DNA from: Prevotella sp.
GTDB lineage: Bacteria; Bacteroidota; Bacteroidia; Bacteroidales; Bacteroidaceae
DNA: 64,000 nucleotides
Assembly (NCBI GenBank): GCA_017449495.1
Contig: JAFTFO010000042.1
Span: forward strand, 31,857 to 95,856
Direction of reading: 5' to 3'
A program made the translations under genes and the position numbers. Shown piece by piece: positions 11,737 through 63,577 of this stretch (positions are counted from its first letter, which is position 1; every line of letters starts with the position of its first letter). Below the pieces are notes generated by a model that saw nothing but the letters and a program-made list of their open reading frames with translations, did no database searches and was not told the origin of the DNA.

Positions 11737-12399
11737 TCAATGCATGATCCGCTTCTTGCCGTTCTGGATGACAACACCCTTATACGAGGCGTCCACCTTC
11801 TGACCTGAGAGGTTGTAGATGGCTACGTCGGGGGCTTTCGCGGACTTGACGCGCTGGATACCAGAGCCACTCACACGCTCTAAGACTTCAACCTCCTTAA
11901 TGATTGTAGTGCCTGGGACCCAACCACAACCTAACAAGACGAAAGCATTGCCTATGACATTGTTGCCGTATTCAGGATAGTCAACATCAATAATCTGGAA
12001 CTCATCTTTAGCCTTTGCTGGTACTACACAAAGAAAAGAGCCATCCCAGTTGCCCAGACATACCCAGTAGCTGCCGTCGGAGGGTACCTTCATAGTGATA
12101 CGAACAACATAGTTGTGGTGTTCCTGCAGTGTCAGTTCACCTGATAATAATGCCACCATCGGGGTATATATATTTTCTCGCATCCGATCATTATAGATAC
12201 CGAGGCCCTCATCAAGTATCTCCAGTCTTGCCTTATCACCTGGATTCGGAGAATCAGCAAAAAAAAGAAGCTCACCTAATTCACCTGAATATCCCTTCCA
12301 GTCTACCTTAGCCAGTGACACCAGAGTGTCATTAGCTTCTTGGGCATGGATAGTCAAACAACAGAAGATGATGGTCGCGGATAGCAGTATCTTTTTCAT
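11737..12399 (-). CDS. Small secreted protein: beta-sandwich module plus Prevotella-type C-terminal tail
   Basis: 220 residues: signal peptide ending in IHAQ, then a module shared with the two proteins at 33679-36200 (ANDTLVSLAKVDWKGY, DEGLGIYNDRMRE, MKVPSDGSYWVCLGNWDG, DEFQIIDVDYPEYGN, GWVPGTTIIKEVEVLE). This module looks like a carbohydrate-binding-type jelly roll. The tail (IYNLSGQKV ... YKGVVIQNGKK) resembles C-terminal sorting tails of secreted Bacteroidota proteins; use of the type IX route is inference. The ATG overlaps the stop of the upstream regulator as ATGA, so translation is coupled. Function unknown. Confidence 0.8.
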   Translation of the reverse strand: MKKILLSATIIFCCLTIHAQEANDTLVSLAKVDWKGYSGELGELLFFADSPNPGDKARLEILDEGLGIYNDRMRENIYTPMVALLSGELTLQEHHNYVVRITMKVPSDGSYWVCLGNWDGSFLCVVPAKAKDEFQIIDVDYPEYGNNVIGNAFVLLGCGWVPGTTIIKEVEVLERVSGSGIQRVKSAKAPDVAIYNLSGQKVDASYKGVVIQNGKKRIMH

Positions 12400-13865
12400 A
12401 TCTTAACGCTCTTTTTACCAATTTTATCGATTTCATCGTTGAATTGATCGGCTGTTCCCTCTATCTGGAAGACTTTCTTCAGAAGTTTACTACGAATATT
12501 TGAGACGTACGAAGGAACGCACTTCTTCAACTTCGCTATATCGCTGGGCGAGATGTGCACACGTGTCAACAAGCAGATGTCGTACTCGATTTCCGTCAAA
12601 GGCACCTCGTCTGCATCCATAATGTCACGGAATTCAGGTATCTCCTGCTCCACCAAGAGACGCAACTGTTTCCAGTCATCATTAGTCGGATATTGTGGCG
12701 GATTGCTCTTAGCCAATGACCTGAGCCGCCTCGTTATAGGGGCATTCTCCAGACGGTATTCAAACGCCGCATTCTTGAAAAGGCGATAACGCACAAAGAG
12801 TTGCCATATCAATATGCCCGAAATGAGAATAACGATGATGGCAGTGAGCCAGGCGATCTTTGCCTCCGACTCTTTCTGCTTAGCCAGGAAACGCTGATGA
12901 TTGTAATTGTAGGAAGCCTGGAACTTCTGGATATTCTCCATCTCGGAAAGGGAATAGGCAGAGTCATTCAACTCATAGGCCAATGTGGCATATTTAGCGA
13001 TGGAATCGGAGTTTTTCTTCTGTTCAAAGACCTCTTGAAGACCTTTGCTTCCTGCTATCTGATTACGGATATCCTGCCCGTCGTGCAGTTCCTTCCTGAA
13101 CCAATACTCTGCGGAGTCTGGTTGATGGATCGCTAAATAACACTCACCTTTTATATAATAATAGATCTCAAAACCCTTGGATATATTCTTGTTGCCATCA
13201 AACAATCCAGACTCTTCCTCATAGATACGGCTATAAGCTATCGCCTTGGAAACATCTCCTTTCTTTAATAAAGAGGTGATGAGACTGCCGCCGAGTGTAC
13301 GGGCAGCCCTATCGGTCTTTCCTATCTCACGGAACATACGCGCTGCCTGTTCCTTAACGTAGATAACGGAATCGGGCATCTTCAGGAAATCGTACGCCCC
13401 ACTCTGCTGGGAATAACGCTTGATAGCCTGCAAGGTGTCCTTATCCTTCCATGCGTAGAACTCCGCCAGTCTTAACTCACTCAGTTCGCTACGAGGCTGC
13501 ACCTGTGTATGATAAATCATGGCGCACTGCCCATGGATGAGACTCAGCAGCTTATAATCACAGTCGACCTGCGTAGTGTCGGCACAGTCGGCTGCCTCGT
13601 AATAGACCATCAGGGCCCGGGGCAGTTCGTTAAGATTGGAATAAGTACATCCAAGAATATACTTGGCACGCATTTGCTCAGTGGCATCACCATGTCTGTC
13701 GAAATACATCACTAACGATTCTGCCAGTGAGTCGTTGAGCAACTTCTCCCCACTACTGTTCTGCTGTTCTAACTCTTCCAGCTGCTGTCGCATCTGCACA
13801 CCATCGCCTGTGCAGCTCATCATGAACCACACAAGGCACAACCATAAAAAACTGTTTATCCTCAT
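12396..13865 (-). CDS. Membrane-spanning TPR regulator with C-terminal LuxR-like helix-turn-helix
   Basis: 489 residues. The N-terminal export signal ends in a lipobox-like MMSC (Cys18). Residues ~30-330 are TPR-type helices (RAKYILGCTYSNLNELPRALMVYYEAAD), expected in the periplasm. A single membrane helix is at about 339-358 (WLTAIIVILISGILIWQLFV). The cytoplasmic part ends in a helix-turn-helix at about 423-466 (LTEIEYDICLLTRVHISPSDIAKL, then PSYVSNIRSKLLKKVF) of the kind found in one-piece transmembrane regulators of Bacteroidota. It is coupled by a 4-bp overlap to a secreted protein gene, and its own promoter carries the palindrome shared with two paralogues of that protein. It is the best local candidate regulator for those sites; ligand unknown. 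Confidence 0.82.
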   Translation of the reverse strand: MRINSFLWLCLVWFMMSCTGDGVQMRQQLEELEQQNSSGEKLLNDSLAESLVMYFDRHGDATEQMRAKYILGCTYSNLNELPRALMVYYEAADCADTTQVDCDYKLLSLIHGQCAMIYHTQVQPRSELSELRLAEFYAWKDKDTLQAIKRYSQQSGAYDFLKMPDSVIYVKEQAARMFREIGKTDRAARTLGGSLITSLLKKGDVSKAIAYSRIYEEESGLFDGNKNISKGFEIYYYIKGECYLAIHQPDSAEYWFRKELHDGQDIRNQIAGSKGLQEVFEQKKNSDSIAKYATLAYELNDSAYSLSEMENIQKFQASYNYNHQRFLAKQKESEAKIAWLTAIIVILISGILIWQLFVRYRLFKNAAFEYRLENAPITRRLRSLAKSNPPQYPTNDDWKQLRLLVEQEIPEFRDIMDADEVPLTEIEYDICLLTRVHISPSDIAKLKKCVPSYVSNIRSKLLKKVFQIEGTADQFNDEIDKIGKKSVKI

Positions 13866-13896: not shown

Positions 13897-13954
13897 CAAA
13901 GATAAGAAAAAAAAGAATATATGCCAAAAAAACGCTTGTGAAATCATTTCACAA
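13897..13954 (-). promoter_or_regulatory. Promoter with TTGTGAAATnATTTCACAA palindrome ahead of the TPR/HTH regulator
   Basis: -7 box TATCTTTG at 13897-13904 (minus strand), a TTTG 20 bases upstream as -33, and a perfect 9-1-9 palindrome TTGTGAAATCATTTCACAA at 13936-13954 whose centre is 41 bp upstream of the -7 box. The block GCATATATTC between them is also present at the 36.2-kb promoter. Confidence 0.8.
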
Positions 13955-13983
13955 TCTAACAAAACACCTGATTAAGGCACAAA

Positions 13984-14013
13984 AAGCCCGCATCTGTCAG
14001 AAGATGCGGGCTT
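13984..14013 (-). terminator. Terminator of the alpha ribosomal operon
   Basis: AAGCCCGCATCT / AGATGCGGGCTT with a 6-base loop, followed by T residues on the minus strand, 26 bases after the rplQ stop. Confidence 0.92.
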
Positions 14014-33678: not shown

Positions 33679-34908
33679 TCAGCGTACTATCCGTTTTTTA
33701 CCATTTTGGATGACGATTCCCTTATACGAGGCGCCCACTTTCTGGCCGGCGAGGTTGTAGACAGGCCCGTCGGCATCGGCAGCTTTCACGGAATCTATCG
33801 CAGTTGTGTTTTTTCGGGAGCCGGAGTTGGCGACCTCATAGACCTCCACTTTCTTGACGACGGTCGATCCTACGACCCAGCCGCTATTAAGGAAGAGATT
33901 GGCATTACTCCCTGAATTATTCTCACCTCCATTCGTGTTCCAGGGACCAGGGAATTCGACATCAATCACTTGGAAATCGTCGCTGGCTTGGACAGGCACC
34001 TCATAGACTTTGGAATTGCCTGCATCAGTATTGAACAACGTCACCACATACGTACCATCGGAAGGAACCTTCATGGTCAGGCGGACCATGTAATCTTTGT
34101 CCTCATCAATAAGGAGATCACCCGTACTGATGATAGTCCAAACCGATCCGGCATACTCCTGCATCTTCGGATTGACAATGGCAAGGCCCTCGTCGGTCGT
34201 CTTCCAAGGGTCGTCTGGAGACATATCAGTCATAGGATAGTCAAGACCTTCCCAATTCATGGAATATATGAGTTTTTCTTCCTCATTTGCACTCTTCAGC
34301 AAGTTGATCAGATAAGGGTGGTAATTTTTATTGATCCAATCAAGTCTGGGATTGAAAGAACGAGGCAAACCTGCGAATCCATAGTCTCTGATCCGCGAAC
34401 AAAGTTCCAGCACTTCCTCCGATGTCTTAAGGTTGCATATCAACCTAAAATAAGTAATTATATAATCTCCAGATTCTTCCTCTTTTATCCAATCAACCGT
34501 TACCTGATCACCAAGATAATCCAAAAGGTCTTCAATCCGTCCACGATGATTCACAAAGGATTCGAATTTAGGAAGGATGAAGTATACTTCATAGTCTTTT
34601 AAACTACTATTATAAAAGGCCGATTCGTAGAAATTACCCTCAGGCAGAGGATAGTCTTTTCTCACAAACCATCCCTCTGCAGGGATATCGTCATTCCTGA
34701 AAATAGATTTATCTCCTGTCTCCTTCATGTCGGCATACAAGCCACTGATTGTCTCCTGACTTTCGGCATCCATCGCCTGAACATACTTGTAAATGAATGA
34801 TTCGTCCGGGGTCAGTTCAACAAACCCATCTATAATCCAATACCCCAGTTGTGCATTTGCGCCCAGACAACTGAGAGCGAACAATAATGTAAACAAAACC
34901 TTTTTCAT
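33679..34908 (-). CDS. Secreted two-module protein (prodomain-like then jelly-roll) with C-terminal tail
   Basis: 409 residues, signal peptide ending in LGANAQ. Module A, about 22-190, begins LGYWIIDGFVELTPDES and includes YPLPEGNFYESAFYN, YFILPKFESFVNHRGRIEDLLDYLGDQV and KTSEEVLELCSRI. This pattern resembles the N-terminal prodomains of Bacteroidota subtilisin-like proteases, but no protease domain follows. Module B, about 235-365, is the jelly-roll-like unit (DEGLAIVNPKMQEYAG, LTMKVPSDGTYVV, DDFQVIDVEFPG, GWVVGSTVVKKVEVYEV). The tail VYNLAGQKV ... YKGIVIQNGKK ends it. It has the same modules as its neighbour but in the opposite order. Function unknown. Confidence 0.8.
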   Translation of the reverse strand: MKKVLFTLLFALSCLGANAQLGYWIIDGFVELTPDESFIYKYVQAMDAESQETISGLYADMKETGDKSIFRNDDIPAEGWFVRKDYPLPEGNFYESAFYNSSLKDYEVYFILPKFESFVNHRGRIEDLLDYLGDQVTVDWIKEEESGDYIITYFRLICNLKTSEEVLELCSRIRDYGFAGLPRSFNPRLDWINKNYHPYLINLLKSANEEEKLIYSMNWEGLDYPMTDMSPDDPWKTTDEGLAIVNPKMQEYAGSVWTIISTGDLLIDEDKDYMVRLTMKVPSDGTYVVTLFNTDAGNSKVYEVPVQASDDFQVIDVEFPGPWNTNGGENNSGSNANLFLNSGWVVGSTVVKKVEVYEVANSGSRKNTTAIDSVKAADADGPVYNLAGQKVGASYKGIVIQNGKKRIVR

Positions 34909-34941: not shown

Positions 34942-35043
34942 CAAAGATAGGGAGAAAATCAATACCCTGGTGCAAAAATGCTTGTGAAATGTATTCACAA
35001 AATGTTGTGAAATGATTTCACTGGCTGTGAAATCATTTCACAC
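34942..35043 (-). promoter_or_regulatory. Promoter with three GTGAAAT palindromes
   Basis: -7 box TATCTTTG at 34942-34949 (minus strand). Palindromes at 34982-35000 (one mismatch), 35005-35023 and 35025-35043 (both with end mismatches). The first is centred 42 bp upstream of the -7 box; the next follow at 23 and 20 bp. Confidence 0.8.
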
Positions 35044-35048
35044 TCCCC

Positions 35049-36200
35049 TCATTTCATCACCATCTTCCTCCCATTTTGGATGACAATGCCCTTATAAGGA
35101 GTGTTCACCTTCTGCCCTGCGAGGTTATAGACCGTATCGTCTGGCTTTTCTGCGTTTATGGTCTTTATCGCTGTTAGAGGGGAAGCCGCGAAGCCATTGT
35201 ATGGAGAGTAGTAGGATATACCGTATTTTTTACTTCGATAGAGGCTATTAAGTATCTGCACAACCTTCAGCACTTCCTCCGAAGTCTTCACCTGACAAGA
35301 CAAATGGTGCCAGTTGAGTGTCTTTTCGCTGGAATAAAGTATCACGTTATTACCCAGGTGTTCCAATATGTCATCTACCTGATAGCCTTCATTTAATTGC
35401 ACCAAGATTCTTGGCAATACATAGATTGTCTGCATCTTCTGCTTAGGACTCCGCATCTGATAAAAGTCCGACGTGAAATAATTGCCTTCTGGCAGAGGAT
35501 GGTCTTTAAGCACATAAAAGTGGCCGCCGATGTCTTTGACGAGGCCTTTATCCTCCGTCATCTGCCTACCTGCTAAGAGATCTTTAAGGGTTACCTCGCT
35601 TTCATAGTCCATCGGCAGGACAAACTTATAAGTACTTGATGCATCAGGGGTCATTTCCTTAAATATATCTTCCCACCAATACCCCAGTTTCTCTAAGACC
35701 TCTACCTCCTTGATGATCGTGGTGCCTTTAATCCAGCCCAGCTCGAGCGATACATGACCACCCTTCACACTGCCCTGATATTCGGGATATTCAACATCGA
35801 TGATTTGGAAGTCGTCGCTTGCTTTGACAGGAGCATGATAGGCATAATTAGTACCCTGACCATCTATATTCACCACTAATTCCCCATCAGAGGGAACCTT
35901 TAAAATTAAACGAATAATATAGAAGTTCCCTGCATCCAGGTCGAAGCTGCTATCTGCAGTAATCATCACCTGAGGTTGCCAACTGTACTTCTGCACGTGA
36001 GGATTGGTAATAGCCAGGCCCTCATCGACCATCCTTACTGAGACATCGGGGTAAGTATCAAGAAAAGAAGCCCACTGAGGAAGCTCTGTCAGCTTCTCAA
36101 AGCTCACCTTAGCCAGGGGCACCAACGTTTCATTGGCTTGTTGGGCACGGGCACCCAAACAAGTGAGGAGGAAAAACACAAATAGCAATTTCTGTTTCAT
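35049..36200 (-). CDS. Secreted two-module protein (jelly-roll then prodomain-like) with C-terminal tail
   Basis: 383 residues, signal peptide ending in LGARAQ. Module B comes first, about 20-170 (ANETLVPLAKVSFEKL, DEGLAITNPHVQKY, LILKVPSDGELVV, DDFQIIDVEYPEYQG, GWIKGTTIIKEVEVLEK), directly followed by module A, about 171-345 (LGYWWEDIFKEMTPDAS, HPLPEGNYFTSDFYQ, YVLPRILVQLNEGYQVDDILEHLGNNV, KTSEEVLKVVQIL). The tail VYNLAGQKV ... YKGIVIQNGRK ends it. Relative to the 409-residue neighbour the modules are permuted; the 220-residue protein at 11737-12399 has module B alone. Binding or inhibitor role possible; function unknown. Confidence 0.8.
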   Translation of the reverse strand: MKQKLLFVFFLLTCLGARAQQANETLVPLAKVSFEKLTELPQWASFLDTYPDVSVRMVDEGLAITNPHVQKYSWQPQVMITADSSFDLDAGNFYIIRLILKVPSDGELVVNIDGQGTNYAYHAPVKASDDFQIIDVEYPEYQGSVKGGHVSLELGWIKGTTIIKEVEVLEKLGYWWEDIFKEMTPDASSTYKFVLPMDYESEVTLKDLLAGRQMTEDKGLVKDIGGHFYVLKDHPLPEGNYFTSDFYQMRSPKQKMQTIYVLPRILVQLNEGYQVDDILEHLGNNVILYSSEKTLNWHHLSCQVKTSEEVLKVVQILNSLYRSKKYGISYYSPYNGFAASPLTAIKTINAEKPDDTVYNLAGQKVNTPYKGIVIQNGRKMVMK

Positions 36201-36231
36201 AACATTAAACCTTTATTATCATTTACGGCCA

Positions 36232-36322
36232 CAAAGATACAGAAAAAAGACGAATATATGCCCAAAAAGGGTTGTGAAATGATTTCACAAACTAACGCAA
36301 GACTTGTGAAATGATTTCACAA
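36232..36322 (-). promoter_or_regulatory. Promoter with two perfect TTGTGAAATGATTTCACAA palindromes
   Basis: -7 box TATCTTTG at 36232-36239 (minus strand), TTTG about 21 bases upstream, and perfect 9-1-9 palindromes at 36272-36290 and 36304-36322. The nearer is centred 42 bp upstream of the -7 box; the second is 32 bp further. GCATATATTC is shared with the promoter at 13.9 kb. Confidence 0.82.
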
Positions 36323-36344: not shown

Positions 36345-36397
36345 CCCCCGACACTTAACGTTGTTAAGATGTCTCGAACAGCGTTAAGTGCCGGGGG
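36345..36397 (-). terminator. Terminator of the rpoBC operon
   Basis: 16-bp stem CCCCCGACACTTAACG / CGTTAAGTGCCGGGGG with one G-U-type mismatch and a 21-base loop, followed by CCTTTTTATG on the minus strand; 19 bases after the rpoC stop. Confidence 0.9.
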
Positions 36398-63152: not shown

Positions 63153-63577
63153 TTGTAAAATTATTTCACTTTTCTTGAACTCTATTGGTATGTTTATATG
63201 GATGCCCTCCAAGGGTCATTGTTAACAAGACCATTATCTTTATGATGGCGAACAGACCTGTTTTGGGGTTCAACCCTCCCATTTCTTCGGGAACGCCTTT
63301 GCACAAAGGGTAAACAGACAAGGAGGGATGTTCCCAATCTCTCCCTTTTCTCTCCCTCATCCCTCAGCCGCAGCTTCCCATGGGCCTCTGACGACACGAA
63401 AAAGAATCTTTGTTGTATAGGGAGAGATGAGGGAGACTTAAAGGAGAGATGAAGGGGGTGATTAAAAAACGCAAAAGTCCTTTAAATAAAGGCACTTCAA
63501 AAGAGTCATGGGAGAGATGGCGCATTATTTCAAATTTGTCTTACCTTTCGCGTTATGACCTTTCGCTAGAATAGGAA
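63153..63577. other. Non-coding stretch with an 11-bp inverted repeat
   Basis: No convincing gene. TCTCCCTCATC (63351-63361) and GATGAGGGAGA (63426-63436) form an inverted repeat, and GGGAGAGATG recurs near 63420, 63451 and 63509. The region may be a decayed element; nothing recognisable remains. Confidence 0.5.

Follow-up and report, generated by a model that had tools for sequence, protein, structure and literature searches.

Regulators of the ToxR/CadC type are membrane-spanning one-component regulators, whose common plan is an extracytoplasmic sensor, one transmembrane (TM) helix and a cytoplasmic DNA-binding domain. The protein that we describe here appears, judging from its sequence, to share this plan, but in the reversed order, with an N-terminal TPR sensor that carries a lipoprotein-type signal and a C-terminal HTH of another kind. 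A second comparison is provided by the operators of the CRP/FNR family, which are spaced as TGTGA-N6-TCACA. The sites of the present locus are similar to them in their TGTGA...TCACA halves and in their activator-type position, a site upstream of the -33 element being an activator-like position in promoter architecture; their spacer is however 7 instead of 6, so that the N6 spacing is not found.

Two further comparisons come from the Bacteroidetes. The consensus of the primary sigma factor sigma-ABfr is TAnnTTTG at -7 and TTTG near -33 (PMC7366714). Our loci match both elements, and they add an upstream palindrome at a fixed phase, of which there is no mention in the part of that paper used here. 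In Bacteroides, BT3442_fam (NCBIfam NF053779) resembles our locus in the secreted proteins encoded after a TPR protein: the TPR protein BT_3442 belongs to the putative operon BT_3442-BT_3433, in which BT_3441 has an immunoglobulin-like fold (PMC2954219). The portion of this paper that concerns us does not, however, describe BT_3442 as a DNA-binding regulator, and it mentions no operator.

Our locus lies in a window of 64,000 nt, by which we mean the whole stretch of DNA analysed, on contig JAFTFO010000042.1 of Prevotella sp. GCA_017449495.1, a MAG of 2.24 Mb in 47 contigs that is 68% complete. The genes, -7 boxes and candidate operators of the module that are located in the window lie on the reverse strand. 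We consider it likely that the palindrome TTGTGAAATnATTTCACAA serves as the operator in a small autoregulated regulon, run by a 489-aa protein that acts as an activator. It would probably be the switch site for the regulator's own gene and for a small set of genes encoding secreted proteins.

The regulator (12396..13865), which we propose as the binder of the palindrome, combines a signal sequence, a TPR-like domain, a TM helix and an HTH. Its N-terminus is hydrophobic and forms a lipoprotein-type signal with an invariant Cys18, which is lipobox-like in several orthologues (for example LAGC, ITGC). The TPR-like region precedes a single TM helix at about residues 335-355 (hydropathy windows starting at 333-345, peak at 333-363), after which come about 130 residues that end in the C-terminal HTH. 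The TM helix and the positive residues that follow it would place this HTH in the cytoplasm, and it should lie close to the membrane, since about 60 juxtamembrane residues, which in three related proteins separate the TM helix from the HTH as a coiled-coil-like stretch, are missing from the clade of the 489-aa protein. The same stretch, carried by related family members, distinguishes our clade from BT3442_fam. Six orthologues share the HTH segment KLK-C-VPSYVSNIR without variation, and the last 105 residues of the regulator align with 27 relatives of the family at 22-72% identity.

The HTH of the window protein matched no Pfam family and no sigma-70 family model; among 28 homologous HTH segments, three match Sigma70_r4 (best E 2e-5) and up to four match sigma-70 models (best E 7.1e-6). 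DUF6377 (PF19904), whose gathering threshold is 36.7 bits, gave no match to the window protein, and it scored 14.6 bits with the orthologue L098 and 19.1 bits with the relative L165. The C-terminal part of NF053779 matches the regulator weakly (E 0.0029, residues 358-465), and the score of 16.4 bits against a cut-off of 940 bits leaves the regulator outside this family; 15 of the 28 HTH segments of the wider family match NF053779 at E up to 0.1, while the window's own segment does not. Sequence searches of solved structures were of no help, the best E being 0.33 for the regulator and 0.11 for its HTH profile.

The first member of the secreted family is a 220-aa protein (11737..12399), whose start overlaps the stop of the regulator gene (ATGA), so that the two genes are taken to form one operon. 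Two paralogues, of 409 aa (33679..34908) and 383 aa (35049..36200), are also encoded in the window. The family has signal peptides throughout and a conserved C-terminal tail, YNLxGQKVxxxYKGIVI, and its members combine a repeated module, about 150 residues long, with a second module (GYW...ELTPDES). The 409-aa protein carries the latter at its N-terminus and the 383-aa protein at its C-terminus, an opposite order that can be read as a sign of domain shuffling. None of the three secreted proteins of the window matches Pfam at E 0.1, and among solved structures the only useful match for the 383-aa protein is that of its C-terminal tail to 7jvi_A (E 0.016). They are predicted to be surface or periplasmic proteins.

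The window contains seven matches to the 19-bp pattern at up to three mismatches, against a mean of 0.01 and a maximum of 1 in 100 shuffles. The candidate operator of the regulator operon (13936..13954) is an exact 9-1-9 palindrome, and so are the proximal (36272..36290) and distal (36304..36322) candidates before the 383-aa gene. The three candidates before the 409-aa gene, namely the proximal (34982..35000), the second (35005..35023) and the third (35025..35043), have two mismatches each, those of the proximal copy being central and leaving the outer TTGTGAA/TTCACAA intact. The preliminary description had counted these six as copies of one 19-bp palindrome; all six were recovered, but only three of them are exact. 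It had seen the palindrome nowhere else in the window, which has to be amended for a match at 63153 with three mismatches, although this one has no link to the module: in the fetched stretch, neither a module gene nor an ORF of at least 80 aa lies over it or after it. Outside the window, a pair of copies on contig C9 (4568/4590) marks a fourth promoter, before a 388-aa secreted paralogue. All eight copies that the MAG holds at up to two mismatches stand at these four promoters, three of them in the window and one on C9, and of its two matches with three mismatches, neither C3:96089, which falls inside an ORF, nor 63153 is in the module. In 18 tabulated sites, the half-sites do not vary at positions -7 to -3 (G,T,G,A,A) and 1 to 4 (A,T,T,T).

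The position of these sites relative to the promoters is equally regular. From the centre of the proximal palindrome to the first base of the -7 box TATCTTTG, we measured 41 bp for the regulator operon (box at 13897..13904), 42 bp for the 409-aa gene (34942..34949), 42 bp for the 383-aa gene (36232..36239) and 41 bp for the promoter on C9. The additional copies are centred 65 and 85 bp upstream of the box for the 409-aa gene and 74 bp for the 383-aa gene, and in the MAG as a whole at 63, 65, 74 and 85 bp. The -33 element of the regulator promoter is regular, with TTTG (13925-13928), 20 bp and TATCTTTG, while the promoters of the 409-aa and 383-aa genes have a looser TTTTTG about 23 bp from the box (all by manual count). 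With the -7 and -33 consensus so placed, the palindrome falls just above the -33 region. The 41, 42 and 42 bp initially reported for three loci were thus found again on re-measurement, and the proximal centres, upstream of -33, fit the activator-type position that had been proposed for them. The claim that the palindrome stands just above a -33 element is sound for the regulator promoter with its regular TTTG, but it refers to a looser element at the other two.

We then turn to the relatives, whose regulator orthologues were found by a scan of named genomes and which comprise Prevotella MAGs from water buffalo and yak and an uncultured Prevotellaceae. Their five regulators are 78-82% identical in the best segment, and 77-81% identical to the window protein over the full-length alignment. 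The palindrome, with zero to two mismatches, precedes the regulator in five of five. In four of them it is centred at 51, 52, 52 and 52 bp, about one helical turn beyond that of the window, before a regular TTTG-20-TAnnTTTG promoter (TTTG or CTTG; manual count). In the fifth (G425), the distance is 42 bp to a weak TAAATTTG but 97 bp to a TATCTTTG that aligns with the promoters of the others, so that either the promoter used or the distance differs from the other relatives. Seven later promoters belong to these clusters, six of them before visible secreted genes and one where the contig ends, and in seven of seven the proximal site is centred at 41-42 bp, with 2 mismatches (one promoter), 3 (two, which are near-identical copies), 4 (one) or 5 (three). 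In the sites eroded to 4-5 mismatches, it is the promoter-near half that has decayed, and the promoter-far TTGTGAA or TAGTGAA is kept. The proximal centres of the 16 promoters of the six gut Prevotella genomes (four own, five of the relatives' regulators and seven later ones) therefore lie at 41-42 or 51-52 bp, with 42/97 bp for the regulator of G425. This is the layout of an autoregulated regulon, in which an operator-like site stands at a fixed phase before the regulator's own promoter and those of its targets. Four paralogues, namely the first gene of our own C9, those on our C43 and C28 and that on C3 of G426, have no site at up to six mismatches 41-52 bp before TAnnTTTG.

This geometry bears on the sense of the regulation. 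The TPR protein might bind the palindrome as a repressor of itself and of the secreted genes, to be released by a signal; autorepression is common, and up to three sites could serve cooperative repression or looping. However, no proximal site overlaps the stretch from -33 to +1, the centres being placed 41-42 or 51-52 bp ahead of the -7 box, and a shift of about one turn is what an activator touching the polymerase tolerates, so we regard repression as unlikely. The reading of the 489-aa protein as an activator draws on the conservation of the site, its co-occurrence with the regulator, its position above -33 and this phase shift of about one turn.

The distribution of the palindrome across genomes informs the identity of its binder. 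The five relatives contain seven matches at up to two mismatches, every one of them at a promoter of the regulator or the secreted cluster. Over the six genomes, 15 of 15 such sites (eight own and seven in the relatives) are hence in the module, at distances that are kept or about one turn off. Hits scattered at random distances or inside genes, which would have refuted the preliminary description, are not what we obtained, and its suggestion of a dedicated small regulon fits these results. Among the relatives' further matches at three mismatches, two of 12 are at module clusters, both in G426. We also scanned 398 genomes of the genus for exact matches to the composite TTGTGA-N7-TCACAA-N29-44-TANNTTTG. 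It was found four times in our own genome (G000) and once each in G223, G245, G340 and G312, against one match of the backward control. Four of these genomes (own, G223, G245 and G340) bear the regulator, those of G223 and G245 being 80-81% identical, and the single match elsewhere, in G312, falls inside a 602-aa coding frame. G340 is taken to be the same as G424 (orthologue L100), as they share the contig number and the coordinates of both sites. Outside the genus, among 393 genomes of the order, three further ones have one match each (backward control 1), two of them intergenic and one in a coding frame, beside unrelated genes. At two mismatches, 71 of the 398 genomes of the genus have some match to the palindrome, many of them A+T-rich and dissimilar to the present palindrome. 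Relaxing the pattern to 7-5-7 with two mismatches gave too much noise to be of use, with 7-46 matches per genome against 7-19 in the backward control. As a separate observation, G335 has 13 matches at up to two mismatches, mostly A+T-rich variants such as TTGTAAAATAATTTCACAA, which are possibly the site of another factor.

Another soluble DNA-binding protein, for example of the Crp/Fnr family, might own the palindrome, the TPR protein being merely one of its targets. The half-site TTGTGA/TCACAA does resemble Crp-type sites, and a Crp-type HTH is encoded at C9:30449 of our MAG and in each of the 12 genomes searched. Against this, the spacer between TGTGA and TCACA is 7 and not 6, a departure from CRP that had been pointed out from the start and that holds in all 18 tabulated sites. 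Furthermore, six of the 12 genomes with a Crp-type HTH have no palindrome at up to two mismatches, the composite architecture tracks the TPR regulator instead, and the genes behind the palindrome are not metabolic ones but those of the regulator and of the paralogous secreted proteins next to it. A Crp/Fnr binder is therefore disfavoured, and we give it a small chance.

The sites could also be shared for no functional reason, through the recent copying of promoter segments along with paralogous genes, which are in tandem in some relatives and of which two in G426 have promoters near-identical over their length. Between species, however, the flanks fall to 27% identity while the palindrome is still at 94%, and the regulator, which is no paralogue of the secreted genes, carries the same site; such copying is very improbable as the explanation. 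The figures are mean pairwise identities over the six regulator promoters, which amount to 94% in the palindrome, 27% in the preceding 80 bp and 45% in the following 30 bp. The gene neighbourhoods differ as well, the regulator locus of the window following rplQ (identified from its translation) and those of the relatives lying in five other gene settings, so that the palindrome belongs to the regulator module and not to the place. Finally, that the palindrome would act as RNA or as the terminator hairpin of the upstream genes is hardly credible, for although 19 bp of palindrome could fold into a hairpin and all three window loci lie between the end of an upstream gene and a promoter, separate G+C-rich hairpins with a T run are present before the palindromes at two of the three, after rpoC (36345-36397) and after rplQ (about 13983-14012, by eye), the palindrome is outside the transcript of the promoter that it precedes, and its conserved distance is to the -7 box and not to the upstream gene.

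If the palindrome is indeed the operator of an activator, the 489-aa protein would be anchored in the inner membrane, with its TPR domain sensing something in the periplasm and its cytoplasmic C-terminal HTH binding the palindrome as a dimer. Bound just above -33, always on one face of the helix, the protein would activate RNA polymerase at its own operon (the regulator and the 220-aa gene), at the 409-aa and 383-aa genes and at the 388-aa gene on C9, and the distal copies in tandem, by raising occupancy, would make the response stronger or graded. The promoter of G425, the eroded later sites, the paralogues that have no site, the absence of such palindromes from related regulators in general and an HTH that matches no Pfam domain count against this reading. 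The regulon may be larger, since the MAG is 68% complete. The cytoplasmic domain of the 12396-13865 protein as the binder is supported by conservation and co-occurrence; activation rather than repression, dimer binding and the periplasmic signal are what we infer beyond this.

We considered whether the palindrome could be a general feature of the related regulators, and this was rejected: among 44 upstream regions, clear short palindromes are found only in the clade of the 489-aa protein. These regions include some genes fetched twice, and the scan covered spacers of up to 8, so that the longer inverted repeat of L171 was missed. The palindrome p-values of the other regulators look like chance (lowest 0.073), and the own site of L098 itself has p = 0.80, with two arm mismatches.

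Out of 43 regulators examined, 22 have boxed promoters on both sides, and in two of these, L171 and L168, the regulator's upstream region and the next gene's promoter have a segment in common, with scores of 34 and 32 against a cross-locus maximum of 17; this is not so for the other 20. Such shared segments may be recent copies. L171 (G426:C3), the TPR part of which is 29% identical, shares a 77-bp promoter segment, 83% identical, with the next secreted gene, and the segment contains a different inverted repeat, GAAAGGTGTTTTC...GAAAACC(or ACACC)TTTC. L161 (G423:C12) has an HTH nearly identical to that of G426:C3, from which it differs, by eye, at 5 of the last 62 residues, a TPR part 63% identical to that of the window protein, and a repeat of the same kind before a downstream small secreted gene. 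The inverted repeat GAAAGGTGTTT...AAACACCTTTC is thus present at three promoters of two regulators with different sensor parts, its centre about 33 bp before the -7 box TATCTTTG (manual count), which suggests that HTH type and operator go together, although sharing with the next promoter is confined to 2 of the 22 regulators. The copies of the repeat downstream of L171 and L161 could be terminators.

Other upstream regions of the family hold repeats of their own. The segment shared by the regulator and next-gene promoters of L168 (G424:C61; score 32 versus 17) has TTGACGAA repeats. L162 (G426:C70), where the regulator has 54% identity, shows a perfect palindrome GTAAAATATCGTATTTTAC at about 164-185, some 21 bp ahead of the -7 box, and part of another copy 32 bp upstream; this palindrome is a possible operator of the L162 protein. 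Upstream of L050, L051 and L101, a repeated TTTTGTATT...CTCACTTAAT.GTACTTTGGCTTCGCCGAA, promoter-like and then hairpin, occurs in several copies and genomes.

Judged by eye, most of the 22 downstream proteins have an N-terminus of the secreted type, and BT_3442 of Bacteroides stands at the head of a cluster in which secreted proteins abound (PMC2954219), so that TPR proteins are paired with secreted proteins more widely than in the clade of the 489-aa protein. Tentatively, Prevotella may possess many membrane-spanning TPR-HTH regulators, at least one match at E 1e-10 or better being present in 151 of 299 genomes in the genus. Each would have its secreted partners and a private operator, set before the regulator gene as well as before the secreted genes, such as the present palindrome, the inverted repeat of G426:C3 and G423:C12 and the TTGACGAA repeat of L168, with the secreted proteins being the ligand or antagonist of the sensor in insulated cell-surface circuits.

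A keyword search of the open-access literature found no operator or target genes for such a TPR-HTH regulator. One or the other half of the palindrome occurs as a letter string in 523 papers, a count that speaks neither for nor against an earlier description. A palindromic operator with autoregulation is of a known kind; the type of regulator and its operator are, as far as we have seen, new. Many TPR proteins of the Bacteroidales carry a C-terminal HTH across the inner membrane, and one clade of them now has a predicted operator, a promoter geometry and a list of targets drawn from comparative genomics, predictions that are precise enough for binding, reporter and deletion tests to be designed directly. 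The secreted proteins under the palindrome gain in this way a first functional context, and, if the parallel cases hold, the code that links the HTH of this family to its operators would be readable from genomes.
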